A stretch of 64,000 nt of DNA. It comes from Rhodoferax saidenbachensis. Lineage in GTDB: Bacteria; Pseudomonadota; Gammaproteobacteria; Burkholderiales; Burkholderiaceae_C. Positions 20,552-38,335 of the stretch are shown in pieces; the first letter of the stretch is position 1; each line of letters begins with the position of its first letter. The position numbers and the translations under genes were made by a program. Under the pieces are notes generated by a model, which saw nothing but the letters and a program-made list of their open reading frames with translations, was not told the origin of the DNA and did no database searches. The DNA lies in contig NZ_CP019239.1 of NCBI RefSeq assembly GCF_001955715.1, positions 4,092,001 to 4,156,000 on the forward strand. Direction: 5' to 3'.

Positions 20552-23512
20552 TCAGTTTAAATATTGAGAAGCTATTACAACACCGTCTTCTGGCAATTTA
20601 ATTGGCACAGAAATACTGGAATAATCCCTTATTGAGAGACTCAGTGGATCCAAGTTTAAGCGTTCCCATAGTCTTTGTTGACCCTGGGTACTGTGTGCTG
20701 GAAAACTCACCAACGATTCAGTAATGAGCAATCCCAGATTTCTGTGGATACTGAGTCTTTTCCCGCTCAAATGCAAGCGATTACTCCAGTCTTCTTCCGC
20801 CAAAGATTGCGAATCCGACATGTCCTCATCAAACAGAAGTTCACCCATCAATGCGGGCTTAAATGCTAGAAATTTACCGTCAAGCACTACCGCACCGTCG
20901 ACAATTTTGCGGCGGTCTGCTCCGGCAATCTGCAACTCAAACATATCCTGCGCCTGTTGAGATGGTCGCAGCAAACCCCATGCCTTGAAGCTAGGAGCAT
21001 CCACACTCCAGTCTTTTTGACGCCAAGCCAATGCACCTGCGCAACCCAGCAATTCGCAATGTTCGAGTGAGGCAACCACCTCAAAGAAAAAATTCCGGTT
21101 CCACGGTCGTAGGTTGCGCTGCATCACCAACACGAGACCTGGTTCGGATGAAGTGATGAGGTCGTTATAAACGTTTAATCGTTCGCTCGGCTCACAGCGT
21201 TGATATGTAATGTCCCATCGTTCAGGATGAATACAGTTTGCATACATATGGCGCTCGATCTCTTCGACGATCTTTGCAGAAGCGCACGGCACCAAAACCA
21301 AAATAGATTGCTGCGCCGGATACGTTGGCAACTCGCGCTCACCACTCACATCAAACGACAAGGCAGTACTTAAGAGCTCGCCCTGCATCTTTTGTGTATC
21401 GCTAGGCTCTGGCATAAGCGCCTGTTTTTGAAGTACCTGCAAAGCGGCACCCGGCTCATTCAGAATCAAATTCAAACGTGCCTCTAGTAATAATGCTTCG
21501 TGGGCATCCTCTATGCTCAATTTTGGATGTTCTTGTTTCAGTAAGTTCAGAGCTTCTAAATGAAATTTTTCGGTGACGAGCTGTCGACATTTTAGTAACA
21601 TGGCACCACCAGAATCTGGATAATGCTTCAGACACAAATCGAGAATTCGCGTCGCCGCCGCGACGTTACCGTTATACAAAACCATTTGTGCCCGTTGCAA
21701 TAGTACCTCCTGCTCCAAGGCTGGGACACTGGAGTGACTGCCCAATTCATTTTTGGCATGCTGCTCAAGCAGTTTTTCAATGGCATTTTCAAACCCCAAT
21801 GCAAATTTTTTGGCATTGCCCAAGCTGGACTCTTTGAATCGTTGAGGCGCCTCTCGCCTAAATTTTGCGATTAAATTTGTATCGCTAGCAACCTCGATGG
21901 CACGCTCCACATAATTTTTTGCCGTGTCAACTGCAAACTCTGGGAAACCCAAGTTGCACATAATGGATCGCCCCACGCGACTAATTAGTGACTTTCCCGA
22001 CAAAGTAATAAGCGGGACACCCACATATGCTGCGAAGCATGAAGTAGTTCCGCCATTAAACGGGTAAGTGTCTAGGACAATATCAATCTCTTGATATGAC
22101 TCCCAATATGCAGCGCCAAAAGAAGGTTTTTTCAAGTCAATTTGCTCTTCTTTGATTCCCGCTTCAACCAATCTCTTCCGAAACGCGGCGGTAGTTGTTT
22201 TATCAATTAGTACTGTGGATTGGATGATCAATCGACTCATCGGTAGTTTTTGTAAAATCAAATACCAACATGCCAGTATTGGTGGTGTTATTTTAGCGAC
22301 ATTGCCATAGCACCCGAACGTCACGAATCCATTTTTGAGCACGGGTGGCTCAGCCAAGTATGGCACTTCTTCCATGGGATCAAAACACCACAATGACTCG
22401 GGAAGTATCAGTGGATTCTCGGTGTAATATTGACTTGCCTCCGCAGTCCATATATGCGGGTCTACCATTTTGACGTCAATCGAGCTGTGGCCGGTCGTGG
22501 GTGGATAGGCAAGGCCCGTAATTTGGATTTTTGCAAACTTATTCTTCAACAAATGCACTCGATTGGCAGATGTGTGGCCCATCAAATCGACCAAAATATC
22601 CAATTCGTGTGAGCGAAGGAGTGTTTCCAGCGCCTCATCACTCAGGCTATGAACGTCGTAAAAATCTTTCGTTATCTCTCGATACGCCTTGGCTTGAACG
22701 TCAGCGGAAGGCTTGACGGTATCTTCGCTGTAGATAAATACTTCAAAACGATCTGTGCTGTGGCTTGCGAGAAGTGGCCTCGCAAAGTAACGTACAGAGT
22801 GCTCATGAAAGTCTGCGCCCCAATAGCCAATGCGTATCTTTTGGGATTTGGGCTTGGCGACTGGCTGTCCAGTCAAATATATAGATGAGCCTTGGGTTCC
22901 TACTCCGGAAACTGAGTTTGTTAGCCTATTAGTTTTTGGCTTAAGTGTTTCGGCCCAGAATTGGTGTTCTTGTGCGAGTAATAAATCATTGCTATCGTTG
23001 TAGGCGAGCCTGAACAGGTAGGCATTTGCGTGGCGTAAGCTATCAAAATCACTTAGCCACGCTGTCATTTGAAACTCTTTGGCCCTATATGCATCACCGA
23101 GAGCCATACATATTCCCGACAATTCGGAATTAACTGCCTCGGCAAATGAGGTACTGTCTTTGATTATTGCAAGCAATGGCAGCGCCAATTCGCACTGATT
23201 ACTGATGACCAGAGCTCTAGCCCAATGGTAAATACAGGCATTGTTTGTATCGTCAAGCCTATACGCTATTTCTATATGATGCTTAAACTGAGCTTTATCA
23301 CCAAGTTGGTCATAACAATTTCCAAGTGCAACATACAAATTGCAATTGTGTGGATCGCGCCTAAGATAATTTTTAATCTCCTTAATGGCAAGATTGAACT
23401 CGCCACTTGCCATCAATTTATCAGCACGTTCCAGATTTGCTCCCACAGAGAGCATATATTGGATTAGCCGAAATATCCAATTTTTTATGGCTTGCAAAAT
23501 ATGTTTTAACAT
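20552..23512 (-). CDS. TPR plus GT41 (O-GlcNAc transferase-like) plus degenerate GT-A protein
   Basis: 986 residues in four parts. Residues 25-220 hold TPR-like repeats (HNCNLYVALGNCYDQLGD). Residues about 225-590 form a GT41/SPINDLY-type glycosyltransferase: RIGYWGADFHEHSVRYF, LDILVDLMGHTS, ITGLAYPPTTGHSSID, FVTFGCYGNVAKITP, DIVLDTYPFNGGTTSCF and SRVGRSIMCNLG. Residues 610-715 hold a second helical repeat block. Residues 725-975 resemble the neighbouring StrF-like enzyme, but its HDDV motif is replaced by QRNL, so this part looks inactive. GT41 enzymes attach GlcNAc-like sugars to Ser/Thr. Position beside pilA suggests pilin or flagellin glycosylation; that is inference. Confidence 0.85.
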   Translation of the reverse strand: MLKHILQAIKNWIFRLIQYMLSVGANLERADKLMASGEFNLAIKEIKNYLRRDPHNCNLYVALGNCYDQLGDKAQFKHHIEIAYRLDDTNNACIYHWARALVISNQCELALPLLAIIKDSTSFAEAVNSELSGICMALGDAYRAKEFQMTAWLSDFDSLRHANAYLFRLAYNDSNDLLLAQEHQFWAETLKPKTNRLTNSVSGVGTQGSSIYLTGQPVAKPKSQKIRIGYWGADFHEHSVRYFARPLLASHSTDRFEVFIYSEDTVKPSADVQAKAYREITKDFYDVHSLSDEALETLLRSHELDILVDLMGHTSANRVHLLKNKFAKIQITGLAYPPTTGHSSIDVKMVDPHIWTAEASQYYTENPLILPESLWCFDPMEEVPYLAEPPVLKNGFVTFGCYGNVAKITPPILACWYLILQKLPMSRLIIQSTVLIDKTTTAAFRKRLVEAGIKEEQIDLKKPSFGAAYWESYQEIDIVLDTYPFNGGTTSCFAAYVGVPLITLSGKSLISRVGRSIMCNLGFPEFAVDTAKNYVERAIEVASDTNLIAKFRREAPQRFKESSLGNAKKFALGFENAIEKLLEQHAKNELGSHSSVPALEQEVLLQRAQMVLYNGNVAAATRILDLCLKHYPDSGGAMLLKCRQLVTEKFHLEALNLLKQEHPKLSIEDAHEALLLEARLNLILNEPGAALQVLQKQALMPEPSDTQKMQGELLSTALSFDVSGERELPTYPAQQSILVLVPCASAKIVEEIERHMYANCIHPERWDITYQRCEPSERLNVYNDLITSSEPGLVLVMQRNLRPWNRNFFFEVVASLEHCELLGCAGALAWRQKDWSVDAPSFKAWGLLRPSQQAQDMFELQIAGADRRKIVDGAVVLDGKFLAFKPALMGELLFDEDMSDSQSLAEEDWSNRLHLSGKRLSIHRNLGLLITESLVSFPAHSTQGQQRLWERLNLDPLSLSIRDYSSISVPIKLPEDGVVIASQYLN

Positions 23513-23553: not shown

Positions 23554-23877
23554 CTATTGAGTCGGCTTCTTCATCAATGATATGACAAGTCCTTCCGTTG
23601 CCATTGTTGAAAAATCCTCTGGATAGTTACGACTCTTCAATTCCCACTGAAATGCATTGACAAAAATGCTACGCCTGAAAAATCCCATCGAATTCTCTTG
23701 CTGAAATGTCTGTGCTTTTGTATAGGTTTTTTCTAACAATCTAGTTATTTTATTCACCGACAATGCTTTGCGTCTCTTTTGCATTAATTCAGGTGAAACA
23801 TCTCTAGCAAGTTGCTCGGCCAACTCTGCTGCGAAAACCTTTTCTTTTTTAAATTTTAAAGTTTCTATGATTTTCAT
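23554..23877 (-). CDS. Small protein of unknown function
   Basis: 107 residues, with no family I recognise. It is basic and helical: MKIIETLKFKKEKVFAAELAEQ, then RDVSPELMQKRRKALSVNKITRLLEKTY and a mixed C-terminus. No signal peptide, Cys or membrane helix. It starts just after the pilA terminator and ends 42 bases before the large glycosyltransferase gene starts, so those two could be co-transcribed. A role as chaperone or regulator for the neighbour is possible but unsupported. Confidence 0.6.
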   Translation of the reverse strand: MKIIETLKFKKEKVFAAELAEQLARDVSPELMQKRRKALSVNKITRLLEKTYTKAQTFQQENSMGFFRRSIFVNAFQWELKSRNYPEDFSTMATEGLVISLMKKPTQ

Positions 23878-23926: not shown

Positions 23927-24355
23927 TTAACCGCGGCAGGACGCAGGGAAATATTTATTAACACTTCCGCTGCACTTCCACTCCAAGGTGCCCAAGGAGG
24001 AGCTAACTGCAGACATATTATTACTGAACAAAGCCACCACTCCCGTAACACCAAGAGCCGAAGACACGGCTGAAACTGTGAAACTTGCGGCAGCAATATC
24101 AGTCACATCTTGATATTTTGCGGTGCCAGCATAGCTACATGCAGAACTAACATTGCTTATATTGCCAATGTCTGCTGCATAAGCGTCAGAAATGCAAATT
24201 TTTGCAGACTCTGCTCCGACGAGCAATTCCGATACTTTTGCACGCACGGTATAGTCCTGATAAGCAGGCAATGCGACCGCGGCCAAAATACCGATGATCG
24301 CAACCACGATCATCAATTCGATAAGGGTAAAACCCCTTTGCAGAGAACGCTTCAT
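23927..24355 (-). CDS. pilA: Type IV major pilin PilA
   Basis: 142 residues. The class III signal MKRSLQRG is followed by [27 protein letters not shown]. Prepilin peptidase cuts after Gly8 and the mature N-terminal Phe is methylated; Glu5 of the mature form (residue 13) is present for filament assembly. Residues 128 and 140 are Cys and probably close the C-terminal D-loop; further Cys are at 54 and 73. Ser-rich stretches ([19 protein letters not shown]) are possible glycosylation sites. The start has an AAGGAG site. Transcription is probably sigma-54 dependent, see 24395-24410. Confidence 0.95.
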
Positions 24356-24394: not shown

Positions 24395-24410
24395 AGCAGG
24401 TTCCATGCCA
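24395..24410 (-). promoter_or_regulatory. pilA: Sigma-54 promoter of pilA
   Basis: On the minus strand TGGCATGGAACCTGCT has GG and GC separated by ten bases, the -24/-12 arrangement of sigma-54 promoters. Transcription would start near 24384, giving an approximately 30-base leader with AAGGAG before the ATG. Sigma-54 control by PilR is known for pilA in several proteobacteria. Confidence 0.7.
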
Positions 24411-24502: not shown

Positions 24503-24530
24503 TGACATTTTTGTCAGCACAAACTGTCAC
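24503..24530 (-). promoter_or_regulatory. Possible PilR binding sites
   Basis: A palindrome TGACATTTTTGTCA (24503-24516) and a further CTGTCAC (24524-24530), written here on the plus strand, lie about 120-145 bases upstream of the predicted pilA start. The TGTC/GACA content and distance fit an enhancer for a PilR-type activator. The site partly overlaps the 3' end of the ATPase gene. pilS and pilR are not in the window. Confidence 0.4.
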
Positions 24531-26947
24531 TTGATACACACCGACCGAACCATCTTTAAGTCCGTCAACCCCATCATGATCTTCTCCATGCCGTCCATTT
24601 TCAGGGTACGCATACCCCCCTCAACCGCCTGAGCAAACAACTCGGCCACGCGGGCACGCTCCTGGATGAGCTTCTTGACACCATCGTCGGCAACCAGCAG
24701 TTCATGCAGACCTACACGGCCCTTGTAACCACTCTTGTTGCATTTGTCGCACCCCACTGCTCTGTAGAGCTTGATTTGGCCATTCTCACCATAGGTCTGA
24801 ATCCACTTATCTACCATCTTCTTGCTCTCGGCTGCGTAGTCCTCTTTCCAGGCCTTGGAATGACGCAACTCTTCTGCATATTCCGCCGCAAACAGTCGTA
24901 GCTCCTCGGCATCCGGCACATAAGACTCTTTGCAATCGCATAGCTTTTTGGCAAGCCGTTGCGCCAGAATACCTAGCAAGGCATCCGCAAAGTTAAATGG
25001 GTCCATGCCCATGTCCATCAGCCGGGTGATGGACTCTGGTGCCGAGTTGGTGTGCAAGGTGGAGAACACCAGGTGCCCCGTCAAGGACGCTTCCACACCC
25101 ATGGACACGGTCTCCTTGTCGCGCGACTCGCCCACCATGATGATGTCCGGGTCTGCACGCAAAAAGGCACGCATGACCAAGGCGAAATCGATGCCCGCTT
25201 TCTTGTTGATCTGTACCTGGCGCAGCCCCTTTTGGGTAATTTCCACCGGATCTTCTGCCGTCCAGATTTTGGTATCTGGCGTATTCAGGAATTTCAGGAT
25301 GGAGTGCAGCGTGGTCGTTTTACCAGAGCCTGTGGGGCCGCACACATAAAACAATCCGTAGGGCTTGCTGACGGTCGCCTCCAGGCGTTCCTTGTTATGG
25401 GGCGTCAAACCCAGTTTTTCCAGCGGTATGGGTTCACCCGCCGCCAGAATCCGCATAACCACATCTTCCACCCCGCCCGCGGAGGGAATCGTGGCAACCC
25501 GCAGCTCGATATCAAGCGGGCCATATTTCTTGAATTTGATCTTGCCGTCTTGCGGCTTGCGTCGCTCTGAAATATCCAGATCACACATGATCTTCAACCG
25601 CGTGACCATGGCCTGCCTGAAATGTGCGGGCACCTCCACATAAGGCACGAGGCTGCCGTCAATGCGGAAGCGGATACCCGTCTTGAACTTGCCGGGCATG
25701 GGCTCAATGTGAATATCAGACACCTTCTGGTTGTAGGCGTCAATGATCACCTTGTTGACGAACTTGACCAATTCGTTGTCTGCTGCAGCGGATTCCAATG
25801 AGTCTTCATTGGCCCCATCATCCAGAGGCGCACCGTCCATGCCAGCCAGCAACTCGTCTACCGTGGTGCCATCCGCCCCGGCGCCAAACAGCTGCGCCAT
25901 GGTTTCTACGAACTCTGCCTGGGTCGTAACACGGTAAGAAAATTTCGCAATGCGCGGGAAAACCTGAGGTACGACGCGGGAGCCACGCACTGCTTCCGGG
26001 TCCATGCACATGATGACAAGGCCTTCGGGTGACTCCTCCAGTGGGATCCAGCCTTGCTCTACGACAAATTCTCGCTTCAGCACACCCTGCAACATCTCGG
26101 AGCGAATGCGCCCCGGATTAAATGCTTCGTAAGGGACCCCAAAAAACTTGGCAAGCGACGGGCCCATTTGTGCGGGCTTGATCTTGTAGTCGCTCATGAG
26201 CCTGTGCTCTACCGATTGCCCTTCGTTGCGGGCATCCTGTATGCATTTGTTGAGCTCTTCTTCAGTCAACACCCCATCGGCCACCAAGCCGTCGTACTTG
26301 GTAGCGCGCTTGCGTGGGCCATCTTCCGCCTTTTGCATACGCTGGCGGATGGCAGTAGCTAAGGTCTTGCACAACTCCGCAACGCCATCAAGTTCTAACT
26401 CTCCAAAAGGCTCATCATTCTTGTTATTGATGACTTGCAGCACGCCATGCAGCGTCTTGCCTTCGAGAATTGGCGCAACCAGCATCTGCTTGGTCCGGTA
26501 GCCGGAGCGTTTGTCCACTTCTTTCAGAAAAGTCAAAGAAGGATGGATCTTTTTTAGCGCTTCTTCGTCGTAGACATCCGGCAAATTCAGGGGTTGTTTG
26601 CTAAAGGCCGCATACCCGGCAATGCTCTGCGGAGAAATTGGCAGCTTAAGATCGCGACTGCTGTTCAAGCCCGTCTTGATCTTTGAAATGATCGCGGTCT
26701 GGTCTTCGTTGGTGGCGTACAGGGTCAAGCGGTCTGCATTCAACAACTTGCAGATGTCCTGGCTCGCCTCCAACATGATTTGCTCGAGGTTCTCGGTGTC
26801 ATGGATGCGCGCCGTGACGTGATGCAACTGCCGATAGAAAAGTGCCTGAAACGTCATGCCCCGTTTTTGCGAGGGCAGCTTCTGCGATTCATAAAACGCC
26901 TGCTCGGACGGAGTCTCCTGACCCACTGGAGGCAGAACTGCGCTCAT
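24527..26947 (-). CDS. GAF-domain PilB/GspE-type ATPase
   Basis: 806 residues, about 200 longer than PilB. Residues 35-205 form a GAF sensor domain (ICKLLNADRLTLYATNED, LEGKTLHGVLQVINN). Residues 215-350 resemble the GspE N-terminal MshEN domain. The ATPase core follows, with Walker A GPTGSGKTTTLHS (about 536), the Asp box and Walker B-like RADPDIIMVGESRDKET (about 592-608), and a GHLVFSTLHTN box. Two pairs of Cys, LCDCKES (about 667) and CDKCNKSGYKGR (about 732), form the zinc site typical of GspE. It powers pilus or type II secretion assembly. The start overlaps the phosphodiesterase stop (ATGA). Confidence 0.9.
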   Translation of the reverse strand: MSAVLPPVGQETPSEQAFYESQKLPSQKRGMTFQALFYRQLHHVTARIHDTENLEQIMLEASQDICKLLNADRLTLYATNEDQTAIISKIKTGLNSSRDLKLPISPQSIAGYAAFSKQPLNLPDVYDEEALKKIHPSLTFLKEVDKRSGYRTKQMLVAPILEGKTLHGVLQVINNKNDEPFGELELDGVAELCKTLATAIRQRMQKAEDGPRKRATKYDGLVADGVLTEEELNKCIQDARNEGQSVEHRLMSDYKIKPAQMGPSLAKFFGVPYEAFNPGRIRSEMLQGVLKREFVVEQGWIPLEESPEGLVIMCMDPEAVRGSRVVPQVFPRIAKFSYRVTTQAEFVETMAQLFGAGADGTTVDELLAGMDGAPLDDGANEDSLESAAADNELVKFVNKVIIDAYNQKVSDIHIEPMPGKFKTGIRFRIDGSLVPYVEVPAHFRQAMVTRLKIMCDLDISERRKPQDGKIKFKKYGPLDIELRVATIPSAGGVEDVVMRILAAGEPIPLEKLGLTPHNKERLEATVSKPYGLFYVCGPTGSGKTTTLHSILKFLNTPDTKIWTAEDPVEITQKGLRQVQINKKAGIDFALVMRAFLRADPDIIMVGESRDKETVSMGVEASLTGHLVFSTLHTNSAPESITRLMDMGMDPFNFADALLGILAQRLAKKLCDCKESYVPDAEELRLFAAEYAEELRHSKAWKEDYAAESKKMVDKWIQTYGENGQIKLYRAVGCDKCNKSGYKGRVGLHELLVADDGVKKLIQERARVAELFAQAVEGGMRTLKMDGMEKIMMGLTDLKMVRSVCIK

Positions 26948-27735
26948 ATATCAAACTCCTGTCCAGCACGCAGCCAGCGAATGTCATGTGTCACATTTGG
27001 TCCAAACGGCTGGGTTTGGTCAAACCGCTGTATCTCTGCCATGATCAGCTCGGTCTCTGCAGGCTTGGTGTGCGTGATGTAAATAGGATAGTTCTTTCCC
27101 TTGGCAATACAGTCGAGCTCATCTGCCAAAACCATCGGGGAGAGATGCAAGCTACGCTTGGCAAGGTCCTGTTCCCGATTACTAAAGGCTGTCTCGATCA
27201 CCAGCATAGCAACGTTGAGCTGGTTCACGCGGGCCCACAACGCGGGATTACGCTCTGTATCCCCCGTAAACACCCAGCATCCCTGCCCCGCCGTCACGGC
27301 AAATCCGGCCGCTGGCACGGTATGTACCGCCGGCAAAACCTCCACCAATTTGTTTCGCAATTGCAAGGTCTGCCCGATACGGATTTCGTGAAAGCTGATA
27401 AAAGGTGCTTGCACCGAAGGGATACAGCTAAAGTCAGGCCAGATAACGTTGTTGAATATATGGGCCTTGAGCGCAGCAATCGTTCCCGCCAGTGCGTGAA
27501 TGCGCAAAGGCTCCTTGCGTTGTGCCGCCACTGCGTCCACCATCAACGGCAATGCCGCCACATGGTCCAGATGCGAATGCGTTAGCAGCACGTCATCGAT
27601 GCGGCGCATCTCCTCCAGCGTCAAATCACCGACACCCGTACCCGCATCCACAAGAATCTCTCCATCGATGAGGAAAGAAGTGGTGCGGCAATCCTTGGCG
27701 ATAGCCCCTGAGCAGCCCAGTACACGTACTTTCAC
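26944..27735 (-). CDS. Metallo-beta-lactamase-fold phosphodiesterase, cAMP class II-like
   Basis: 263 residues from the GTG at 27735, preceded by GAGG; a TTG at 27759 would overlap the cyclase gene. The metal motif LLTHSHLDHVAALPLMVDAV (HxHxDH, about residue 45) and later GCWVFTGDTERNP and ITHTKP complete the two-metal site. The layout resembles class II cyclic-nucleotide phosphodiesterases (PDE1/CpdP type). That fits its place 10 bases after a class III adenylate cyclase gene: the pair could make and destroy cAMP. Other MBL-fold hydrolase activities cannot be excluded. Confidence 0.75.
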   Translation of the reverse strand: MKVRVLGCSGAIAKDCRTTSFLIDGEILVDAGTGVGDLTLEEMRRIDDVLLTHSHLDHVAALPLMVDAVAAQRKEPLRIHALAGTIAALKAHIFNNVIWPDFSCIPSVQAPFISFHEIRIGQTLQLRNKLVEVLPAVHTVPAAGFAVTAGQGCWVFTGDTERNPALWARVNQLNVAMLVIETAFSNREQDLAKRSLHLSPMVLADELDCIAKGKNYPIYITHTKPAETELIMAEIQRFDQTQPFGPNVTHDIRWLRAGQEFDI

Positions 27736-27745
27736 AACAGCCGCC

Positions 27746-29995
27746 TCACTTGGTTTCAAAATTGGTCGCGCCGTCCCATTCGGGATCGAATGGCAACAGA
27801 CGCATGGAGGCTACCCGTTCTGAGTAGAGCTGGTAAAGGTATTTTTTGACATTCATGCGCATTAAATTGAGCAGGAGTACATCTGCCTGATCCCAATTCT
27901 GCGACCTGTAGGTCTTGATGAAATTGGCCCAAGTCTTCAGTTCATTCGCGGCTTCCGCATTCAAACGCTCCGCCGGCGCCAATGGCCAGAAAATGGCAAC
28001 CGCCTGCTCCTTGCCCTTGACACGCACACGGTCCAATTCCTGCCAAGCGAAGTCAGGTGCCAATTTGCGTGTGGATTCGCTGACCACGATATCCACGCCA
28101 TACGCTTTGGACAACCCTTCGAGCCGGGAACCCAGATTAACGGCGTCACCAATCACGGTGTAGCTCCGCCGGATATTGGAACCCATGTCCCCTACGCACA
28201 TGGTGCCCGTGTTCAGGCCGATACCAATGCCAATTTCCGGGAGTCCTTGCGCGCGGTGTTCGTGATTGATGTCCCGTACCGCATTGGCCATTTCCATGGC
28301 GGATTTCACGGCCAGGTGGGCATGCTCAGCACTTTCCACGGGCGCCCCCCAAAAGGCCATGACGCAATCGCCCATGTACTTGTCAATCGTTCCTCGATTG
28401 GCGCGTATCAAACTGGTCAAACGGCTAAAAACACCGGTCAAGAGCGCCTGCAATTGCAAAGGCTCCATCTGCTCCGACATTTTGGTGAACCCCCGCATGT
28501 CGCAAAACATCACCGTCAGCTCCCGATTGGCCGCCTGCATGGTGTAACTGTCGGGGTCTTTCACCATTTCATCCACCAACTCTGGCGGCACGTAGGTTCC
28601 AAACAGCTGCGCAAGCTCTCGCTTGGAACGGCTTTCGACAAAATATCCATAACTCATGTTGAGCGCAAAAGCCGTCAACGCCATAGTGAGTGAGGAGGCC
28701 AACGGTAAAACCAGGCCATACGAAAGATACAGCCAGAAATTGATGCCCGCCAATGCCAGCAGGACACCCACGCTAAGTGCCACTGCACGTGGCGCAGACA
28801 GCAATGGAAGTCCAATAGCGAGTACCAGACCGGCCAGCACCAGCATCACGACGTCGTAACCCAGCGCATAGTCCGGCTTCAGCAGAACATTACCATCCAG
28901 CAAGCCGGAAATAAGATTGGCATGCGTCTCCACTCCGGGGTAAGTCTCTCCCACGGGTGTCACGCGCAAGTCCAGCAAGCCAGGTGCGGTTGTACCGACC
29001 AGCACAATCTTGTCTTTCAGACTACCGGGCGTGATCCGTTTGGCGAGAATGTCCGAAGCAGACACATAACGGAATGAGCCGCCATCGACACCGCCCGCTC
29101 CGCGAAAAGGCACCAAAGTCGCCACCCGTTCATCCACCGGTATGGCCAATGACTTGTCGCCTTGCTTGAGCAAAACACGGTCCATCCCCTGGTAACTGCG
29201 CGACAGGAATCGTTCATTGGAGAAGCCCGGCAATACAGCAGGGTGTCCAGCCAACGCACGGAACATGGACAGCCCGAGGGATTCGTAGTAGTCACCCTTG
29301 TATTCCGCAATCAAGGGCAGGGAGCGAACCACGCCATCGCCATCAGTAATGGAGTTGAAGAAGCCCGCCATCGGTGCGGCTTTGGCCAACGGCGCAATGT
29401 TGGATCCATATCCACTCCAGGAGGTACTGCGTATCGCCCGGCCCTGCAAATCTGCTTGGGACATGATGGGGGTCGGCAACACGCCCGTTGAATGCCCATG
29501 CCGATCACTGGTCAGGTAGTAGCCCATGACCACAGGTCGTTTTGCCAACGCGGATGCAAAAACGGCGTCGTAATCCAGCGTAGCCTGGAGTTGGCGCAAA
29601 CGCTCTGAAAATCCTGCCTGGTCCTTGAATTCGTTCTGAGCCATCGCATTGAGCCGGACAAGCCCCGAACTTTCGTCCGCTTCTGCGAAGACCACGTCAA
29701 AACCCAACAAGGCAATCTGCTGCTGGTCAAACAGCTCGCTCACCAACTGTCCCAGCTTGTTGCGCCCCCAAGGCCAGCGGCCTACCTCGGCAAGACTCTT
29801 CTCGTCAATGTCGACAATGACGATGCGATCATCCAGTGTTTTGGGGCTGGTAGCCCGAAGGCGGGCGTCATAAATGATGTCGTCAAGCCGCTGCAAAACG
29901 TCAAGGCGAACAACACCAACGGCATGCAGCAAAGCGAATACCAAGGGCAGCAATGTCACTGCGATGCGGGGCCAGTGCTTTGCAATTGATTTCAT
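27746..29995 (-). CDS. CHASE2 adenylate cyclase
   Basis: 749 residues. An N-terminal helix (VTLLPLVFALLHAVGVVRL) leads into a periplasmic CHASE2 sensor domain (about 35-365; RIVIVDIDEKSLAEVGRWPWGR, TPVGETYPGVETHANLISGLL). Three membrane helices follow (about 370-460), then a class III cyclase domain. Metal Asp residues are in VMFCDMRGFTKMSE (about 497) and YMGDCVMAFWG; Lys in IDKYMGD (about 539) and Asp in TVIGDAVNLGSRLE (about 613) are the adenine-selecting pair, so cAMP is the likely product. The operon position is downstream of the FHA gene. Confidence 0.92.
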   Translation of the reverse strand: MKSIAKHWPRIAVTLLPLVFALLHAVGVVRLDVLQRLDDIIYDARLRATSPKTLDDRIVIVDIDEKSLAEVGRWPWGRNKLGQLVSELFDQQQIALLGFDVVFAEADESSGLVRLNAMAQNEFKDQAGFSERLRQLQATLDYDAVFASALAKRPVVMGYYLTSDRHGHSTGVLPTPIMSQADLQGRAIRSTSWSGYGSNIAPLAKAAPMAGFFNSITDGDGVVRSLPLIAEYKGDYYESLGLSMFRALAGHPAVLPGFSNERFLSRSYQGMDRVLLKQGDKSLAIPVDERVATLVPFRGAGGVDGGSFRYVSASDILAKRITPGSLKDKIVLVGTTAPGLLDLRVTPVGETYPGVETHANLISGLLDGNVLLKPDYALGYDVVMLVLAGLVLAIGLPLLSAPRAVALSVGVLLALAGINFWLYLSYGLVLPLASSLTMALTAFALNMSYGYFVESRSKRELAQLFGTYVPPELVDEMVKDPDSYTMQAANRELTVMFCDMRGFTKMSEQMEPLQLQALLTGVFSRLTSLIRANRGTIDKYMGDCVMAFWGAPVESAEHAHLAVKSAMEMANAVRDINHEHRAQGLPEIGIGIGLNTGTMCVGDMGSNIRRSYTVIGDAVNLGSRLEGLSKAYGVDIVVSESTRKLAPDFAWQELDRVRVKGKEQAVAIFWPLAPAERLNAEAANELKTWANFIKTYRSQNWDQADVLLLNLMRMNVKKYLYQLYSERVASMRLLPFDPEWDGATNFETK

Positions 29996-30049
29996 CTCAG
30001 ATCACCCCGCAAAACCGGTGCAAACGACAACACCGGCGGACAACAGTTA

Positions 30050-30721
30050 TCAGGTTTGCACAAATTGCATTTGCGTACCGGCCAGTTCGATCAGATCTCC
30101 ATTCTTCAAGGAGATAGGATCTGTGCCTATGGGTGCGCCATTCAAGGTGGGGTTACCCGCACCCTCCACATGGTGCACCACGAAGCCATGCTGGCGCTTG
30201 GTGATCGCTGCCACGGCAACACCCGGCTTGCCGATGGTTGTAACGACTTTGGTCAACGGCACTTCGCGTCCCGAAGCCGCGCCCGAGAGCACCTTGATCG
30301 CGGCATGGAAAGCGCCCATGCCGACGGAGTCGCCTGCACCGCTGGGGAATCCGGACGGTGAAGCTGCCACGGCCTGCGGCGCAGCTGCGGGCCGCGCCTT
30401 CACCACCATAGTTTTGTCAAAGTCAGCTACTGCGTTGTCGCCGACGAACTTGATCTTGTACTTGCCAATTTCAATGGAATCGCCATTCTGCAGTGGCTGC
30501 TTTTTGATGGCTTTGCCATTTACATAGGTGCCATTGGTGCTGTTGAGATCTTCCAGAACCACCTCTCCACCGGCCATTTGAAGCACTGCGTGTTCGCCGC
30601 TGACGGCAAGATTGTCAATGACGATATCGTTGTACGGCCTGCGCCCCAAGGTGGTTCGATCCTTGGTGAGCTGTACTTCCTTGATCACGACCTCATCGAT
30701 CGAAACGATCATTTTCGGCAT
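30050..30721 (-). CDS. Protein with two FHA domains
   Basis: 223 residues. The first FHA domain (about 20-95) is canonical: LGRRPYNDIVI, SGEHAVL, LEDLNSTNGTYVNG, all the phosphothreonine-binding residues. The second (about 145-222) is less perfect: TTIGKPGVAVAAITKRQHGF replaces the GR motif and the NG pair is kept in NPTLNG. A proline/alanine-rich linker joins them. FHA domains bind phosphothreonine, so with the kinase and PP2C phosphatase upstream in the same operon it likely reads the phosphorylation state. Cytoplasmic. Confidence 0.9.
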   Translation of the reverse strand: MPKMIVSIDEVVIKEVQLTKDRTTLGRRPYNDIVIDNLAVSGEHAVLQMAGGEVVLEDLNSTNGTYVNGKAIKKQPLQNGDSIEIGKYKIKFVGDNAVADFDKTMVVKARPAAAPQAVAASPSGFPSGAGDSVGMGAFHAAIKVLSGAASGREVPLTKVVTTIGKPGVAVAAITKRQHGFVVHHVEGAGNPTLNGAPIGTDPISLKNGDLIELAGTQMQFVQT

Positions 30722-30769
30722 GATCGACTCCTTTGCATGTAATTGGTTTCTAGAAAACGCATGTGCTTC

Positions 30770-31555
30770 TTACTTCCCCAGCAATCTCGCGATTAAACCC
30801 CGCTTTTCAGTCGCCTCGCTGACTTCGACCAGCAGCACCGAAATATTGTCGCGCCCGCCATTGGCATTGGCTTCATCCACCAATTGCACGGCCTTTTGGT
30901 CGAGTTCTGCATCTGAACAAACAATTTTAGCGATTGCAGGGTCTTCCACCATATCTGAGAGGCCGTCAGAGCACATCAGGTAAATATCGCCGACTTCTAC
31001 TGGATATTCGTTGACTTCCAGCAACACTGTTTCTTCCACACCCAGGGCACGCGTCACAAGATTCTTGATGGTGGAGGTTGCGGCCTGTTCCTGCGTAATC
31101 AAACCTGCATCCATCTGCTCCTGCAGCAAGGAATGGTCTTTGGTGATCTGCTCCAGCACTCCGGCACGCATGCGGTAGCAGCGTGAGTCTCCGATATGGC
31201 CGATTAGCAGCAAGTCGTCCCGAAAGGCGGCCACGACCAGCGTAGTACCCATGCCAGCGTAATGTGCATTGGAGTTGGCCGAGTTGAAGATGGACAGGTT
31301 GGCATTGTCCACACAGATTTCCATCGCCCGTCGCACTTCACGGGGTTTGGCTCCGTGGCCAGCCTCCGCGAGCCAGCGGCTCAATTCGGACTTAATGAAC
31401 GCCGTTGCCATTCCGCTGGCAATCTCGCCGGCGTTATAGCCGCCCATACCGTCCGCCAAAATGGCGATGTCGGTATCCTCATCAAACACCACCGAATCTT
31501 CGTTGTTGTCACGGGCCCGGCCGGGATCGGTTTTTGCGCAAAAGTGGTAATTCAT
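30770..31555 (-). CDS. PP2C-family Ser/Thr phosphatase
   Basis: 261 residues. PP2C motifs in order: DPGRARDNNEDSV (about 10-22), AILADGMGGYNAGEIAS (about 32), VVAAFRDDLLLIGHIGDSRCY, YLMCSDGLSDMVED (about 190) and GGRDNISVLLVEV. All metal-binding Asp residues are present. It removes phosphate from Ser/Thr and is the natural antagonist of the CHASE2 kinase encoded 9 bases upstream. Soluble, ends in a short basic tail. Confidence 0.93.
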   Translation of the reverse strand: MNYHFCAKTDPGRARDNNEDSVVFDEDTDIAILADGMGGYNAGEIASGMATAFIKSELSRWLAEAGHGAKPREVRRAMEICVDNANLSIFNSANSNAHYAGMGTTLVVAAFRDDLLLIGHIGDSRCYRMRAGVLEQITKDHSLLQEQMDAGLITQEQAATSTIKNLVTRALGVEETVLLEVNEYPVEVGDIYLMCSDGLSDMVEDPAIAKIVCSDAELDQKAVQLVDEANANGGRDNISVLLVEVSEATEKRGLIARLLGK

Positions 31556-31564
31556 TGTTAGTTT

Positions 31565-34252
31565 TTAGATTTCCAGATCCGTTGCGCCGCCAGCTTCCTC
31601 GGAGTCCGGCTTCCTGGCCACTTGCACCGTCGTCTTGTCGTAAACAGCCTGCATGGCAGGGAGCGTCGCAGAAAAGTCGGCCTTGCCTCCGGCGTCCGTG
31701 ATCTGCACACCACCGCCTGAACCGCCAGCTCGCGCGGCAGTCGCGCCTTCCATGGCACCTCGCAAGTCAGCGGCAAACTGATCTCCATCCTGGTAACGCG
31801 TCTCCGGACGCTTGCTCAAAGCAAGCGCAACAATATTGGCCAGCGTTTCCGACAACTCCGGCCGAATCACGCGCACATCCGGCGCTTCCTCATTGGCGAT
31901 CTTGAACATCAACTCCGCCATGGAGTCTCCGCGGAAGGGTAAAACACCGGCCAGCATTTGAAACAGCATGACGCCCAATGAATAAAGGTCTGAGCGGCCG
32001 TCCACCTTTTTGCCCGCCAGTTGCTCCGGCGACATGAAGCTTGGCGTGCCCAGCACGAGCCCCGTCTTGGTCTTGCTGGAGTCCGTAATGCGGGCAATAC
32101 CGAAGTCTGTCACCTTGACGGTATCGCTCTCCACCTCGTACATGATGTTGGCAGGCTTGATATCCCGGTGCACGACGTTTTGTTTGTGGGCATAGGACAG
32201 CGCCTCGGCCACCCGGGCCACGATACTCAAAACCACGGGGACGGGCAGCAAATGGTCACCCTTGCAGAAATCGACAAGGTCCTTGCCCTTGAGGAATTCC
32301 ATGGCGATGTAGGCCAGGTCATGCTCTTCACCCGCATCAAAGATAGTCACGATGTTCTGGTGCTGCAGTCGCCCGGCGGTCTCTGCCTCGCGGAAAAAGC
32401 GCTCGCGTGCGTCCGTGAGCTCCTCGCCGGCAAACTCCTGGCTCAAAGCCATGGTCTTGATGGCGACAACACGGCCAATCTTGGGGTCTTTGCCCAGATA
32501 CACCACCCCCATGGCTCCCTTGCCCAGCTCTTTTTCAACCTGGTAGCGGCCCAGCATGGGTTTCTCCACCGCACCGCCATCCAGCAGCATGGTGCCGCCG
32601 GGGTGACCACCGCCACCACCCAACATGACGGTTTCCGACAAATTCTTGGCGCGGCTGAGTTTGGACTTGATGTCTTTGTAGTTATTGTCAAACGCAGCCA
32701 TGTGTTCATAAACCGACTCGGCTTTGTTGAACTGGCGCTTGCGCTCAAAGTCCAACGCCAGGCTGTACAGATTGCCCATGACGGCATCGTTCATGGGGAC
32801 CCGGCGAAAACGGTCAAACGCCATGTCCAACTGCCCTTGGCCCTGCAGTGCCAGACCCATCATGCGGTTTGTTTCGGCCGACTCTTCGTCTGCCTTCACC
32901 TTGCCAGCCTCTGTCATCAGGAAGCGCTTGGTGGTCAACGCCAAATGCCCTAGCACCAGGACGGTGGCAGGAAACACGAGCTTCAGCCAGGTCGCAGCAG
33001 CCGAGAGCATGCCAAACTCCACGACGAGCAAGGCAACAAACAGGGTCAGAGTGACACCTGCCGCCATACCGGCCGACAGCCGCGGGAGCGCAACCACGAC
33101 ATAGGCCGCCACCAACAGAAATACCGCCAAGGTGGCCCAGATACCCCAAACCGGCTGGACAATAAAGTGCTCATTCAGGATGCTGGAGGTGATGTGCGCA
33201 ATGGTCTCCGCGGGTGACAGGGCCGGATTGCCAGGCACCGGAAATTGCACGCCCACGCCTGCTGCCGTAGCGCCAACGATGACGATTTTGTCGGCGTACT
33301 TGCTTGCCGGAATTTTGCCGGTGAGCACATCGTAAAAAGAGTCCACCGCAAAAGCCGGCTTGCCATCTTTTCCTTTGTAGAACTGGGGCAACATAAGGGC
33401 TGCCTCATCGGTTTTGACTCGGAGTTTGCCGATCTGCACAGACTCACCCGCATTGAGTCGGATGTCGCTGGAAGCCAGATTCAGGCTTTTCACCGCAGCC
33501 AGCAAGGCCATGGAGGGAACCGCTTTACCGTAGTAATTCACCAGCAAAGGTTCGAGCCGAACGGCACCATCCACATCAGGAAACTGGTTCAAATGCCCAA
33601 TGCCAGCTGCTGCGTTTCCAATACTCTCGATGGGCTGCTGCCCCCGCGTGGCGGAAATGGAAAATCCATTGTTTTCATCCAGCGCACTTTTCAGCGCGTA
33701 AGGCGGCAGGGGGTTGTCAGGCTTGCCCTGCTGCTCCCCCAGCGTAAAAACCGATGGCACTAATACATTGCCTGCGTTTTGCATACTGGCTGCAAGCACA
33801 GCATCCGTATCCAGTGCCACTTCCGCCTCGGCAATCAACTTGCCAACCTGCTCATTGTTCGAGCCGGCATCTCCAGAAGCGCCCAATGCAGCCTTCATTT
33901 TTCGGATAAATATAAGACCGGGATCAACCTGAGGCTCAAAGAAAAAAGCCGTATGAACGATGGTTTTGGCCTTGGCAGCTGCCAGCAGGTCAATCAGCTT
34001 GGCATGCACATCGCGTGGCCAAGGCCAGCGACCAATATTGGCAACACTCTGGTCATCAATGGCAATGACGGCGATCCGATCCGAGGGCTGGCGGGAGGTG
34101 CTGGTGCTGGCAAAGTCGTAAAAACGACGCTCCATCGTGCCGATGAAGTCAGTCCCTATATGCAGGGCCATGGCAGCAAAGACAATTGCCACGCCGGCAA
34201 ACCAGTCTGTACGCCAAAAAGACTGCGCCTTAGATGAAGAAGATTTTGCCAC
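31565..34252 (-). CDS. CHASE2 Ser/Thr protein kinase
   Basis: About 895 residues from the GTG at 34252, preceded by an AGGG site; a GTG at 34285 would add 11 residues. One N-terminal helix, a periplasmic CHASE2 domain (about 40-360; RIAVIAIDDQSVANIGRWPW), then membrane helices up to about 450. A cytoplasmic TPR-like linker (ALQGQGQLDMAFDRF, ALDFERKRQFNKAESVYEHM) leads to a Hanks-type kinase domain (about 566-840): LGKGAMGVVYLG, VAIKTMAL, HRDIKPANIM (about 691), VTDFGIAR, GTPSFMSPEQL. First gene of the signalling operon. It probably phosphorylates the FHA protein or the ATPase; target unknown. Confidence 0.93.
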   Translation of the reverse strand: MAKSSSSKAQSFWRTDWFAGVAIVFAAMALHIGTDFIGTMERRFYDFASTSTSRQPSDRIAVIAIDDQSVANIGRWPWPRDVHAKLIDLLAAAKAKTIVHTAFFFEPQVDPGLIFIRKMKAALGASGDAGSNNEQVGKLIAEAEVALDTDAVLAASMQNAGNVLVPSVFTLGEQQGKPDNPLPPYALKSALDENNGFSISATRGQQPIESIGNAAAGIGHLNQFPDVDGAVRLEPLLVNYYGKAVPSMALLAAVKSLNLASSDIRLNAGESVQIGKLRVKTDEAALMLPQFYKGKDGKPAFAVDSFYDVLTGKIPASKYADKIVIVGATAAGVGVQFPVPGNPALSPAETIAHITSSILNEHFIVQPVWGIWATLAVFLLVAAYVVVALPRLSAGMAAGVTLTLFVALLVVEFGMLSAAATWLKLVFPATVLVLGHLALTTKRFLMTEAGKVKADEESAETNRMMGLALQGQGQLDMAFDRFRRVPMNDAVMGNLYSLALDFERKRQFNKAESVYEHMAAFDNNYKDIKSKLSRAKNLSETVMLGGGGGHPGGTMLLDGGAVEKPMLGRYQVEKELGKGAMGVVYLGKDPKIGRVVAIKTMALSQEFAGEELTDARERFFREAETAGRLQHQNIVTIFDAGEEHDLAYIAMEFLKGKDLVDFCKGDHLLPVPVVLSIVARVAEALSYAHKQNVVHRDIKPANIMYEVESDTVKVTDFGIARITDSSKTKTGLVLGTPSFMSPEQLAGKKVDGRSDLYSLGVMLFQMLAGVLPFRGDSMAELMFKIANEEAPDVRVIRPELSETLANIVALALSKRPETRYQDGDQFAADLRGAMEGATAARAGGSGGGVQITDAGGKADFSATLPAMQAVYDKTTVQVARKPDSEEAGGATDLEI

Positions 34253-34467: not shown

Positions 34468-35166
34468 TCAGGCCGGCGGCTGGGCGCGTCGCTTGACCAC
34501 GATACCCAACCCCAGCACTACCAGCGCACCCAGTACACCCAGACCGTAGTTCCACGAGGTGGTTTGCGGCAGGATTTCCTTGAGTGCAGGATCGGTATGG
34601 GCCATGGTTCCGGCAATCCATCCCAGCAGCATGCCGCCAAAGGTAATGATCACGGGGAAACGATCCATCAGCTTTAAGACCAACTGGCTGCCCCAGATGA
34701 TGATGGGAATGCTGACCAACAGACCAAAAATCACCAGCGGCATCTGGTGCTGGCTACCGGCATTGGTGGCCGCGCCAGCAATGGCGATAACGTTGTCGAC
34801 GCTCATCACCAGATCGGCCACGATCACGGTCTTCACGGCCGCCCAAAGCTTGTCACTGCCATTGATATTGGAATGCTCATCCTCGCCATCAGGCGCCAGT
34901 AGTTTCACTCCAATCCACAGCAGCAGTGCGGCACCCACCAGTTTGAGATAGGGCACCTGCAGCAAAGTCAGGGCAAAGGCAATCAGGACCACCCGCAAAA
35001 TGATGGCTCCTGCGGTCCCCCACAGAATGCCCTTGACGCGCAAGTGTGCAGGTAGTTGCCGGCAAGCCAGGGCGATGACCACAGCGTTGTCGCCACCCAG
35101 AAGGATGTCGATCATGATGATCTGGCCAACTGCCAGCCAGAATGGGGCGGAGAGGAATTCTTCCAC
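34468..35166 (-). CDS. TerC family membrane protein (YjbE type)
   Basis: About 232 residues from the GTG at 35166, which gives the family N-terminus (EEFLSAPFWLAVGQIIMIDILLGGDNAVVIALA); a TTG two codons upstream is the alternative. About seven predicted helices. The conserved acidic GGDNAVV and VIVADLVMSVDNVIAIAGAA pairs of the TerC family are intact. The short subgroup is linked to manganese and metal handling of the cytoplasm. It is preceded by a terminator and lies in tandem with a related gene. No riboswitch hallmark is visible upstream. Confidence 0.87.
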   Translation of the reverse strand: MEEFLSAPFWLAVGQIIMIDILLGGDNAVVIALACRQLPAHLRVKGILWGTAGAIILRVVLIAFALTLLQVPYLKLVGAALLLWIGVKLLAPDGEDEHSNINGSDKLWAAVKTVIVADLVMSVDNVIAIAGAATNAGSQHQMPLVIFGLLVSIPIIIWGSQLVLKLMDRFPVIITFGGMLLGWIAGTMAHTDPALKEILPQTTSWNYGLGVLGALVVLGLGIVVKRRAQPPA

Positions 35167-35209
35167 TGTCAACTTTCAAAAGAGCCACAAAACCCCCGAT
35201 TCAACCCCA

Positions 35210-35250
35210 AAAACAATAAAACCGGATTGCCCCTAAGGAAATCCGGTTAA
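35210..35250 (-). terminator. Intrinsic terminator of the upstream TerC gene
   Basis: AACCGGATT and AATCCGGTT flank an eleven-base loop, followed on the minus strand by TTTATTGTTTTT. It ends transcription of the gene at 35327-36010, so the downstream TerC gene is transcribed separately. Confidence 0.85.
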
Positions 35251-35326
35251 TTAAGCGACCAGCTCTAGCCCTACGAAGCCTGTGCTGGCCACTTACCTAT
35301 TTGCAACGGCCCCTGGCCTTGTTGTA

Positions 35327-36010
35327 TCAGGTGTTTTTTGCGGCGTTGCGTCTGGACAGCAGTTGCCCCAGACCCAGCACCAGCGTGGCGCCCAATGCAG
35401 CCGCTGTGTAATGCAGCCAGTGGTGCGAGGCAGAGAACTCCACCAAGGCAGTGTCGCTTGCAATGGTCTCACCGCCGACCCAACCGATCAGTGCCGCACC
35501 CAGCATCACGATCACCGGGAAACGCTCCATCAAGCGGATCATCAGCGTACTGCCAAAAATCACCAGCGGAATGCTAATGGCCAAGCCCAGCACCAGCAAG
35601 ACCATGCTGCCATGGGCCGCAGCGGCAACGGCAATCACGTTATCCAGGCTCATCACCAAGTCGGCAATCAGGATGGTACGCACGGCCGCCATCAGGCTAC
35701 CCGTATGTTTGCCATGGCCTTCTTCACCGCCATCATCCATCAGCAACTGCACGCCAATCCACAGCAGCAGCAAGCCGCCCACGATTTGCAAAAAAGACAG
35801 TTCCAGCAGTTTGGCGGCCACCACGGTCAGCGCTATGCGCAACACCACGGCAGCACCGGAACCCCACAGCACCGCCTTTTTTTGCTGCGCGGGGGGTAGG
35901 GCGCGCGCTGCTAGCGCAATCACCACGGCGTTGTCGCCCGAAAGGATGATGTTGATCCAGACGATCTTGAGCAGACCAATCCAGAAGTCCACACTTTGCA
36001 GCAATTCCAT
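35327..36010 (-). CDS. TerC family membrane protein (YjbE type)
   Basis: 227 residues, a paralogue of the product at 34468. MELLQSVDFWIGLLKIVWINIILSGDNAVVIALAA opens the protein; the second acidic helix is ILIADLVMSLDNVIAVAAAAHG. About seven helices with a His/Asp/Glu-rich cytoplasmic loop (MDDGGEEGHGKH) that could bind metal. An AAAGGGGAAAAC ribosome site precedes the ATG. Transcription probably starts in the 50 bases after the sucD terminator, with its own terminator at 35210. Confidence 0.88.
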   Translation of the reverse strand: MELLQSVDFWIGLLKIVWINIILSGDNAVVIALAARALPPAQQKKAVLWGSGAAVVLRIALTVVAAKLLELSFLQIVGGLLLLWIGVQLLMDDGGEEGHGKHTGSLMAAVRTILIADLVMSLDNVIAVAAAAHGSMVLLVLGLAISIPLVIFGSTLMIRLMERFPVIVMLGAALIGWVGGETIASDTALVEFSASHHWLHYTAAALGATLVLGLGQLLSRRNAAKNT

Positions 36011-36030
36011 GTTTTCCCCTTTTCAATCCC

Positions 36031-36067
36031 AATAAAAAAGTGCCCAAGCACAAGGCCGGGGCACTTT
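36031..36067 (-). terminator. Intrinsic terminator of sucCD
   Basis: AAAGTGCCC pairs with GGGCACTTT around a thirteen-base loop, followed on the minus strand by TTTTTTATT. It lies about 50 bases after the sucD stop. Confidence 0.9.
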
Positions 36068-36115
36068 GGGCAAGGCTAGAACTGCGTCCTTGGCCAAGCA
36101 ATTAGACGGTAGCGT

Positions 36116-37009
36116 TTACAACATGGCCTTCAGCAATTTGGCCATTTCGGATGGATTGCGTGTGACCTTGAAGCCGCACTCTTCCATCACTGCCAATTTG
36201 GCGTCCGCCGTATCGGCACCACCGGAGATCAGTGCACCGGCGTGGCCCATGCGTTTTCCGGGAGGCGCTGTCACACCGGCGATAAAGCCAACGATAGGCT
36301 TCTTCATGTTGAGTTTGCACCAACGGGCGGCTTCGGCTTCGTCGGGTCCACCGATTTCGCCAATCATGATGACGGCGTCGGTATCTGGATCGTCGTTGAA
36401 AGCACGCATCACGTCGATATGCTTCAAACCATTGATCGGGTCGCCACCAATACCAACCGCACTGGATTGGCCCAGACCGATTTCGGTCAGCTGAGCGACC
36501 GCTTCGTAAGTCAGCGTACCGGAGCGGCTGACCACACCAATGCGGCCCTTGCGGTGGATGTGACCGGGCATGATGCCGATCTTGATTTCGTCAGGGGTGA
36601 TCAGGCCAGGGCAGTTCGGGCCGAGCAGCAAGGTTTTCTTGCCGCCAGCCGCTTCCTTGGCCTTCATGCGATTGCGCACTTCCAGCATGTCCTTGACCGG
36701 AATGCCTTCAGTAATACAAATCGCCAGATCCAGGTCGGCTTCGACGGCTTCCCAGATGGCAGCCGCAGCGCCAGATGGGGGCACGTAAATCACGGACACC
36801 GTAGCGCCGGTTTCCGAAGCCGCTTCCTTGACGGATGCGTAGATTGGAATGTTGAAGATGGACTCGCCAGCCTTCTTGGGATTCACACCGGCCACGAAAC
36901 AGTTCTTGCCGTTTGCGTATTCCTGGCACTTTTCAGTGTGGAACTGACCGGTCTTGCCGGTGATACCTTGGGTGATGACCTTGGTGTCTTTGTTGATGTA
37001 GATAGACAT
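36116..37009 (-). CDS. sucD: Succinyl-CoA synthetase alpha subunit
   Basis: 297 residues. With SucC it converts succinyl-CoA, phosphate and ADP/GDP to succinate, CoA and ATP/GTP in the citric acid cycle. The N-terminal CoA-binding Rossmann domain begins MSIYINKDTKVITQGITGKTG. The phosphorylated His is in GKRMGHAGALI (about residue 246). The sequence GVVSRSGTLTYEAV is also conserved. It starts 10 bases after the sucC stop; the two are co-transcribed with a terminator after sucD. Confidence 0.97.
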   Translation of the reverse strand: MSIYINKDTKVITQGITGKTGQFHTEKCQEYANGKNCFVAGVNPKKAGESIFNIPIYASVKEAASETGATVSVIYVPPSGAAAAIWEAVEADLDLAICITEGIPVKDMLEVRNRMKAKEAAGGKKTLLLGPNCPGLITPDEIKIGIMPGHIHRKGRIGVVSRSGTLTYEAVAQLTEIGLGQSSAVGIGGDPINGLKHIDVMRAFNDDPDTDAVIMIGEIGGPDEAEAARWCKLNMKKPIVGFIAGVTAPPGKRMGHAGALISGGADTADAKLAVMEECGFKVTRNPSEMAKLLKAML

Positions 37010-37019
37010 TGCTTATTCC

Positions 37020-38186: not shown

Positions 38187-38335
38187 GACGTCTCTCTCTG
38201 GACTGGACAATTTTCACCATGCCGCAACGACGGACTACTAGGCACATGGCCCCGGACACAGCAAGCAGGAATGTATCATGTTGCGACGCACCAAACTTTT
38301 GCGGGGCTTACAGCAGGTTTTTGGACCTCTATGCT

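Follow-up and report, generated by a model that had tools for sequence, protein, structure and literature searches.

In the 64,000-nucleotide window analysed here (positions 4092001-4156000 of the single-contig 4.26 Mb genome of Rhodoferax saidenbachensis), six genes lie in the order K-P-F-C-M-A directly upstream of the pilin gene pilA: a sensor kinase (K), a PP2C phosphatase (P), a forkhead-associated (FHA) protein (F), an adenylate cyclase (C), a phosphodiesterase (M) and a motor-type ATPase with a GAF domain (A). The gene content and order, their conservation in Burkholderiales, the intact catalytic and ligand-binding residues of the products and the loss of whole modules at some loci are all observed. 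On balance, we favour, with modest confidence, the reading that the operon is a signalling island setting the activity of A as an auxiliary type IV pilus (T4P) motor, with a phosphothreonine switch and a cyclic-nucleotide switch converging on it. A broader reading is held more tentatively: an undescribed, order-wide island may exist in which turnover of phosphothreonine, cyclic AMP (cAMP) and, through an additional protein Y, cyclic di-GMP (c-di-GMP) jointly acts on a dedicated cAMP-gated pilus motor. A search of open-licence papers aimed at the gene system found no description of it.

The first-pass annotation had placed the six genes on one strand, in this order and upstream of pilA, and the coordinates and Pfam domains bear this out (Table 1). 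It had also given intergenic gaps of 9-54 bases and a single ATGA overlap. This holds for K/P (9 bases), P/F (48), F/C (54) and the ATGA at M/A, but the spacing of C and M depends on the start codon of M: TTG 27759 gives a 14-base overlap and GTG 27735 a 10-base gap. A periplasmic sensor role is attributed to CHASE2, and the only two CHASE2 matches in the genome are those in K and C.

Table 1. Features of the operon and the adjoining pilin gene, in window coordinates.
Feature	Position	Strand	Description
K	31565..34252	-	CHASE2 membrane sensor + Hanks-type Ser/Thr kinase, 895 aa, GTG start; PF05226 + PF00069
P	30770..31555	-	PP2C phosphatase, 261 aa; Pfam PP2C
F	30050..30721	-	FHA + disordered linker + degenerate FHA-like second half, 223 aa
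Thr104 codon of F	30410..30412	-	Linker motif FDKTM; putative phospho-acceptor
C	27746..29995	-	CHASE2 + class III adenylate cyclase, 749 aa
M	26944..27759	-	Metallo-beta-lactamase (MBL) fold, class II cyclic nucleotide phosphodiesterase-like, 271 aa from TTG start
A	24527..26947	-	GAF + MshEN-like + PilB/GspE-like motor ATPase (Pfam T2SSE), 806 aa
GAF of A	26348..26791	-	Residues 53-200; predicted cyclic nucleotide pocket R73, T75, I90, D145
Sigma-54-type promoter of pilA, TGGCATGGAACCTGCT	24395..24410	-	Consensus match
pilA	23927..24355	-	142 aa; Pfam N_methyl + Pilin

How widely is the arrangement conserved? In an order-wide search of 300 genomes, 129 contain a match to A with an E value of 1e-100 or lower; in eight of these the match begins only at about residue 217 or later, and the four of the eight that were scanned all lack the GAF domain. 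The named proteins among the best-scoring relatives are mostly from Rhodoferax. Two sets of loci were compared, 80 from named, closer relatives and 60 regions drawn from across the order, usually one for each genus; a true A (>850 bits) is present in 55 of the latter, giving 135 loci with an A orthologue. K-P-F-C-M-A occurs in order at 57 of these 135 loci (31/80 named, 26/55 order-wide), and many of the loci without the full set are interrupted by contig ends. Polaromonas sp. JS666 (locus L065) is one relative with all six genes in place. Individual genes were counted in the 48 order-wide loci whose sequence extends 9.5 kb or more beyond A on its upstream side; on the downstream side, about 4.5 kb was read. 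P and F each occur at 40, M at 38, C at 31, K at 30 and pilA at 26, together with two genes met elsewhere, Y (GAF-HD-GYP) at 36 and X (cyclic nucleotide monophosphate (cNMP)-binding/rhodanese) at 9 (at least 40 bits). By comparison, the genes flanking the operon in the window are matched in the same 48 loci at 13, 13, 12 and 12 (upstream) and 2, 2, 0 and 0 (downstream), which rules out chance co-location. The corresponding counts in the 80 named loci are 48, 49, 63 and 59 upstream and 3, 7, 0 and 0 downstream; since the upstream flank is itself present at 48-63 of these loci, the upstream control has no discriminating power there. The initial proposal had hinged on synteny beyond close relatives, and the order is indeed kept well outside them. 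Across loci, with start codons unrefined, the spacing of K-P, P-F, C-M and A-Y is mostly below 60 bases, while F-C reaches 309 and M-A 359, with one M-A interval of 2969.

The arrangement is also modular. C and M are both absent at 30/135 loci, seven of them with K and 23 without. P and F occur together at 40/48 order-wide loci, ten of which lack K, and parsimony places 13 changes in the presence of K among 104 loci. Inspection by eye found a TerC-like or succinyl-CoA-ligase-like frame directly before P at five of eight named loci without K. P-F-A is the most persistent part of the island but is not universal, and K, or C with M, is lost at some loci. The six genes had been described as a unit; they do recur together in this order, but elsewhere the unit is larger, with X and Y extending it, which rules out the six as the whole. 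A class-wide sample of 369 genomes yielded ten matches to A at E 1e-180, eight of them outside the order. All eight were fetched; none has K, P or F beside A, and four align through the GAF region.

The enzymes of the island come in pairs. As had been pointed out at the outset, each has a matched opposite, kinase with phosphatase and cyclase with phosphodiesterase. Their active sites are intact. In K, the HRD and DFG motifs and activation-loop residues T728/T730 are invariant in the 74 sequences that passed length and score filters. P is of the Stp1/IreP type (248.1 bits against an NCBIfam cut-off of 230), with D20, D35, D197, D236 and N237 invariant in 108 aligned sequences. The phosphothreonine-binding core of FHA domains reads G-R...S-x-x-H...N-G, and the corresponding residues of the first FHA domain of F (Pfam, E 1e-3), G26, R27, S41, H44, N63 and G64, are invariant in 109/109 sequences. 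F had been taken for a two-FHA protein. The second half is all-beta in the predicted model and has an FHA-like sequence pattern, but it is unreported by Pfam and a Lys replaces the conserved Arg of the first FHA, so it is called degenerate. The model has a mean predicted local distance difference test (pLDDT) score of 79 and a predicted template modelling (pTM) score of 0.39, with linker residues 98-135 below pLDDT 50; its best Foldseek matches are the single FHA domains of OdhI, GarA, Ki67 and DgcB. A candidate acceptor motif, [FY][DE][KRQ]T, occurs in 87/109 F (shuffled mean 1.0) and in 27/74 K (shuffled mean 3.0), lying within the last 80 residues of K in 23/74; the C-terminal tail of K in the window carries it as YDKT. 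The motif is not above chance in P or C.

The cyclic-nucleotide branch is similarly well preserved. D499, K539, D543, T613, N620 and R624 of C are invariant in 71 aligned sequences; we take D499 and D543 to be the metal-binding Asp residues, K539 and T613 to contact the substrate and N620 and R624 to stabilise the transition state. Among PDB entries, C matches 6fht, 3r5g (CyaB) and 2w01 best, and the position of a Glu in 2w01 is Lys539 in C and likewise Lys in 3r5g, presumably pointing to ATP as the substrate. M exceeds the PDEase_II cut-off (PF02112, 48.2 vs 23.7 bits), with Lactamase_B_2 scoring higher still (59.7 bits) and RNase Z models matching below cut-off. In the PDB, M matches yeast PDE1 alone at E 1e-3 (4ojv, E 1e-7). 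Its HxHxDH site is complete, with H61, H63, D65, H66, H146, D167, H205 and H230 invariant in 85 aligned sequences. At some loci of distant families, X (345-376 residues, but longer in one frame) separates M from A, and both of the proteins scanned have cNMP_binding and rhodanese domains. A phosphate-binding cassette, FGEEAL...RNA[TS], was recognised by eye in 10 of 11 X stretches, the remaining one (L142) being a different part of a longer frame. Thus, a cyclase, a phosphodiesterase and a receptor can share one operon. Y (520-832 residues) usually follows A in distant families; GAF and HD_5 domains are present in 3/3 scanned, and HHE...GYP is intact in 41/42.

The GAF domain of A, which resembles known nucleotide receptors, may link this branch to the motor. 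Searched in isolation, its closest PDB match by sequence is 1ykd (CyaB2, E 7e-26), followed by 4mcw (the GAF of an HD phosphohydrolase) and then the GAF domains of PDE6, PDE2, PDE10 and PDE5. GAFb of CyaB2 contacts cAMP through Arg291, Thr293, Ile308, Asp356 and Asn359 (PMC4411481). The aligned residues of A are R73, T75, I90, D145 and S148, so four of five contacts are kept: R73 in 134/134 ungapped rows, T75 in 133/134 and D145 in 136/136, with V, I or L at the I90 position across the family. These residues make cAMP the predicted ligand. The motor itself retains Walker A in 136/136 and Walker B in 135/136 aligned A. MshEN domains that bind c-di-GMP have an RLG-containing motif; the MshEN-like part of A, which may have a c-di-GMP role, scores 27.0 bits with Pfam (cut-off 23.1), and the motif was not seen there by eye. 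Other orphan motors were also encountered. This genome encodes another orphan PilB-like ATPase at 1282935-1283810 (a 617-residue frame), with no T2SSF match nearby. Orphan motors of a different type, which have MshEN but no GAF and are 777-915 residues long, occur at L173:9627-12077, which also has a weak DUF4388 match, L175:9015-11477, L176:8890-11637 and L174:8124-10457.

The third element is the pilin gene. The sigma-54 promoter that had been assigned to pilA corresponds to a sigma-54-type site that matches 10/12 consensus bases and is conserved among related loci: the best site scores at least 10/12 in 60/73 of them, against 0.3% of shuffles and 2/44 regions upstream of K. This pilA is the strongest of nine N_methyl matches in the genome. 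The other eight form two clusters, named by position and eye: one at 2.57 Mb is minor-pilin-like, and one at 0.226 Mb adjoins gspE/gspF-like genes. A canonical pilB-pilC-pilD-like set, pilD being assigned by eye, lies at 3.366-3.370 Mb, and all T2SSF matches of the genome are at 3.368 Mb, beside canonical pilB, and 0.224 Mb; none is beside A. Ramlibacter tataouinensis is described as having one T4P machinery and three PilB paralogues (PMC3164672).

How might these parts work together? In the mechanism proposed here, we infer the phosphorylation of F by K, a contact between F and A, the T4P as the machine and an effect on pili together with its direction. K, as sensor kinase, and P, as phosphatase, would set the phosphothreonine state of the F linker (FxKTM, Thr104) and of the K tail. 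F would read this state through its intact first FHA and relay it to A, either by direct binding or by alternating between open and self-closed states, as GarA and OdhI do. In parallel, C would make and M would destroy cAMP near the membrane, and the GAF domain of A would bind it. With cAMP binding by the GAF beside the relay from F, both inputs would converge on one motor. A would then act on the single T4P platform (PilC), starting or boosting extension of the PilA pilus that is encoded just downstream under sigma-54. Other families add X, a cNMP-binding component, and Y, a c-di-GMP phosphodiesterase-like one.

Several observations weigh against this mechanism or against parts of it, beginning with the phosphothreonine arm. 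The candidate acceptor motif is at chance level in A (9/136, against 7.7 in shuffles), and it occurs in 32/85 M, nearly always at one C-terminal-proximal place, with no evident role. In raw counts, strict FxKTM in F appears to track K (69/75 loci with K, 13/29 without; Fisher 8e-7), but this does not survive tree correction, which gives four losses in each background (p = 0.08), in a test weakened by its use of a widened pattern (71/75 vs 16/29). P and F are both missing at 8/48 order-wide loci, P-F without C and M is found at just 2/48, and the K-P-F-A and P-F-A forms belong mainly to the named, closer relatives.

The cyclic-nucleotide arm raises the question of whether the two switches meet on A at all, as the earlier annotation had supposed. 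They may not: P-F-A could be a phosphothreonine-controlled motor and C and M (with X) a separate, co-expressed cAMP branch, with the GAF binding cGMP, some further ligand, or cAMP made by cyclases other than C. The intact enzyme pairs speak for the supposition, but the GAF pocket is the same with C-M (68 rows) and without (30 rows). The GAF therefore need not read the cyclase of its own operon, and the expected decay of the GAF once C and M are lost was not seen. P-F-A does exist without C and M, and class III cyclases are encoded elsewhere in 20/20 searched genomes lacking C-M at the locus. An M orthologue was absent from the same 20, some of which may be incomplete, with weak matches in 17 of them (best E 4e-7). 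The equivalent of CyaB2 Asn359 in A is Ser/Thr. In addition, the NKFDE motif is partial; N174 and F181 are present in 136/136, the Lys lies one place later and D/E are partly replaced. Mutation of NKFDE residues in phosphodiesterase (PDE) GAF domains is reported to have abolished or reduced binding (PMC11977230). This genome has no X orthologue, the best match being E 4e-9 over the cNMP part, and its Y orthologue (68% identity, intact HHERMDGKGYP) is at 2.560 Mb, away from the operon. Even so, we regard separate branches as unlikely, given that at all 57 full loci C and M separate F from A and that the pocket matches the cAMP contacts of CyaB2. The pairing of cyclase and GAF-ATPase also recurs outside the order, at one of the eight class-level loci, where a CHASE2 cyclase lies tail to tail with a GAF-ATPase (L198:12953-17408, reversed orientation).

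The identity of the machine is a further point of doubt. A had been described as a PilB/GspE ATPase; it is PilB-like, but it is neither canonical PilB nor GspE. It falls below the cut-offs of the PilB (TIGR02538, 466.3 vs 675.65 bits), GspE (TIGR02533, 431 vs 630.25) and TfpB (NF053534, 387.3 vs 850) models, and in a tree of 596 columns it groups with orphan motors of mostly about 800 residues, outside the PilB and GspE clades (support 0.999). For these reasons, the T4P is a machine that we infer for A. A might instead drive another filament, of type II secretion or an uncharacterised kind, with the adjacency of pilA incidental. Indeed, pilA was not found at 22/48 order-wide loci within about 4.5 kb after A, and this genome also has a type II secretion-like cluster. 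Such a role for A is nevertheless quite improbable. PilM is above cut-off in 57/57 A-bearing genomes, which were chosen for completeness (14/20 without A), although its commonness in the order makes this weak evidence. In 25 of the 57, no GspF exceeds its curated cut-off, although the cut-off can pass over a divergent GspF, as it does in this genome. For the same reason, GspF presence (32/57 with A vs 11/16 without) was set aside as a discriminator between T4P and type II secretion. Moreover, the pilA of the window is the sole N_methyl gene outside the two other clusters. That A is instead a regulatory subunit, blocking or mixing with canonical PilB at the PilC platform, would fit the lack of a PilC/GspF of its own but is very unlikely in view of the intact Walker motifs and of TfpB, which shows that an additional motor is able to act in its own right (PMC8213720). 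Convergence of both switches on A as an auxiliary T4P motor thus remains our favoured reading.

Comparison with known systems places the island between several of them. PADLOC matches look like generic kinase and cyclase similarity and were discarded. Type VI secretion has a threonine phosphorylation pathway, PpkA-PppA-Fha, in which, as here, a kinase, a PP2C and an FHA protein form one cluster serving an envelope machine. Unlike that pathway, the island has TerC, sucCD-like genes and pilA as its immediate neighbours, its output gene is a pilus-type motor, and F scores 43.5 bits against a TagH cut-off of 120.25. F resembles GarA/OdhI and Bdellovibrio DgcB, which are among its closest folds and likewise have a flexible threonine stretch beside the FHA, but in F the candidate acceptor threonine comes after the FHA and is followed by the degenerate FHA-like half. 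In Tad pili, a class III CpaF with a fused FHA, found mostly in betaproteobacteria (PMC12019362), also wires a phosphothreonine reader to a type IV filament ATPase; here, in contrast, the FHA is a separate protein and the motor is GspE/PilB-like with a GAF. TfpB, the second T4P extension motor of Acinetobacter baylyi, provides experimental precedent for an additional PilB-like motor, phylogenetically distinct, alongside canonical PilB (PMC8213720). A differs in having a GAF and in exceeding the 584 positions of the TfpB model by about 220 residues, and the main text of the TfpB paper makes no mention of GAF (PMC8213720). Finally, the GAF of A belongs by sequence to the same subfamily as those of CyaB2 and mammalian PDEs (PMC4411481, PMC11977230), but in those proteins the GAF controls a cyclase or a phosphodiesterase, and here it would control a motor ATPase.

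What would the proposed mechanism mean, if true? First, it would explain how many Burkholderiales time the building of pili, through direct control of the motor and not through transcription, the route that Vfr takes in pilus control. Second, two signalling languages would be joined on one machine, and A would be, on the broader reading and to our knowledge, the first filament motor ATPase to be switched directly by a cyclic mononucleotide and an FHA partner. Third, the GAF-bearing secretion ATPases, a family without a name so far, would gain a suggested function. The proposal comes down to a few short, testable points, namely R73/T75 of A and Thr104 of F.

The neighbourhood of the operon holds additional genes. 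Upstream of K, at 34468-38210, are two adjacent TerC-family genes and then sucCD-like genes. After pilA comes a 107-residue open reading frame without a Pfam match (23554-23877), matched at 2/48 order-wide and 3/80 named loci. Also near pilA are a gene with TPR and Glyco_transf_41 domains (20552-23512), resembling O-GlcNAc transferase (OGT) and matched at 2/48 order-wide and 7/80 named loci, and a glycosyltransferase gene (19750-20538); the products of these two genes perhaps glycosylate the pilin.

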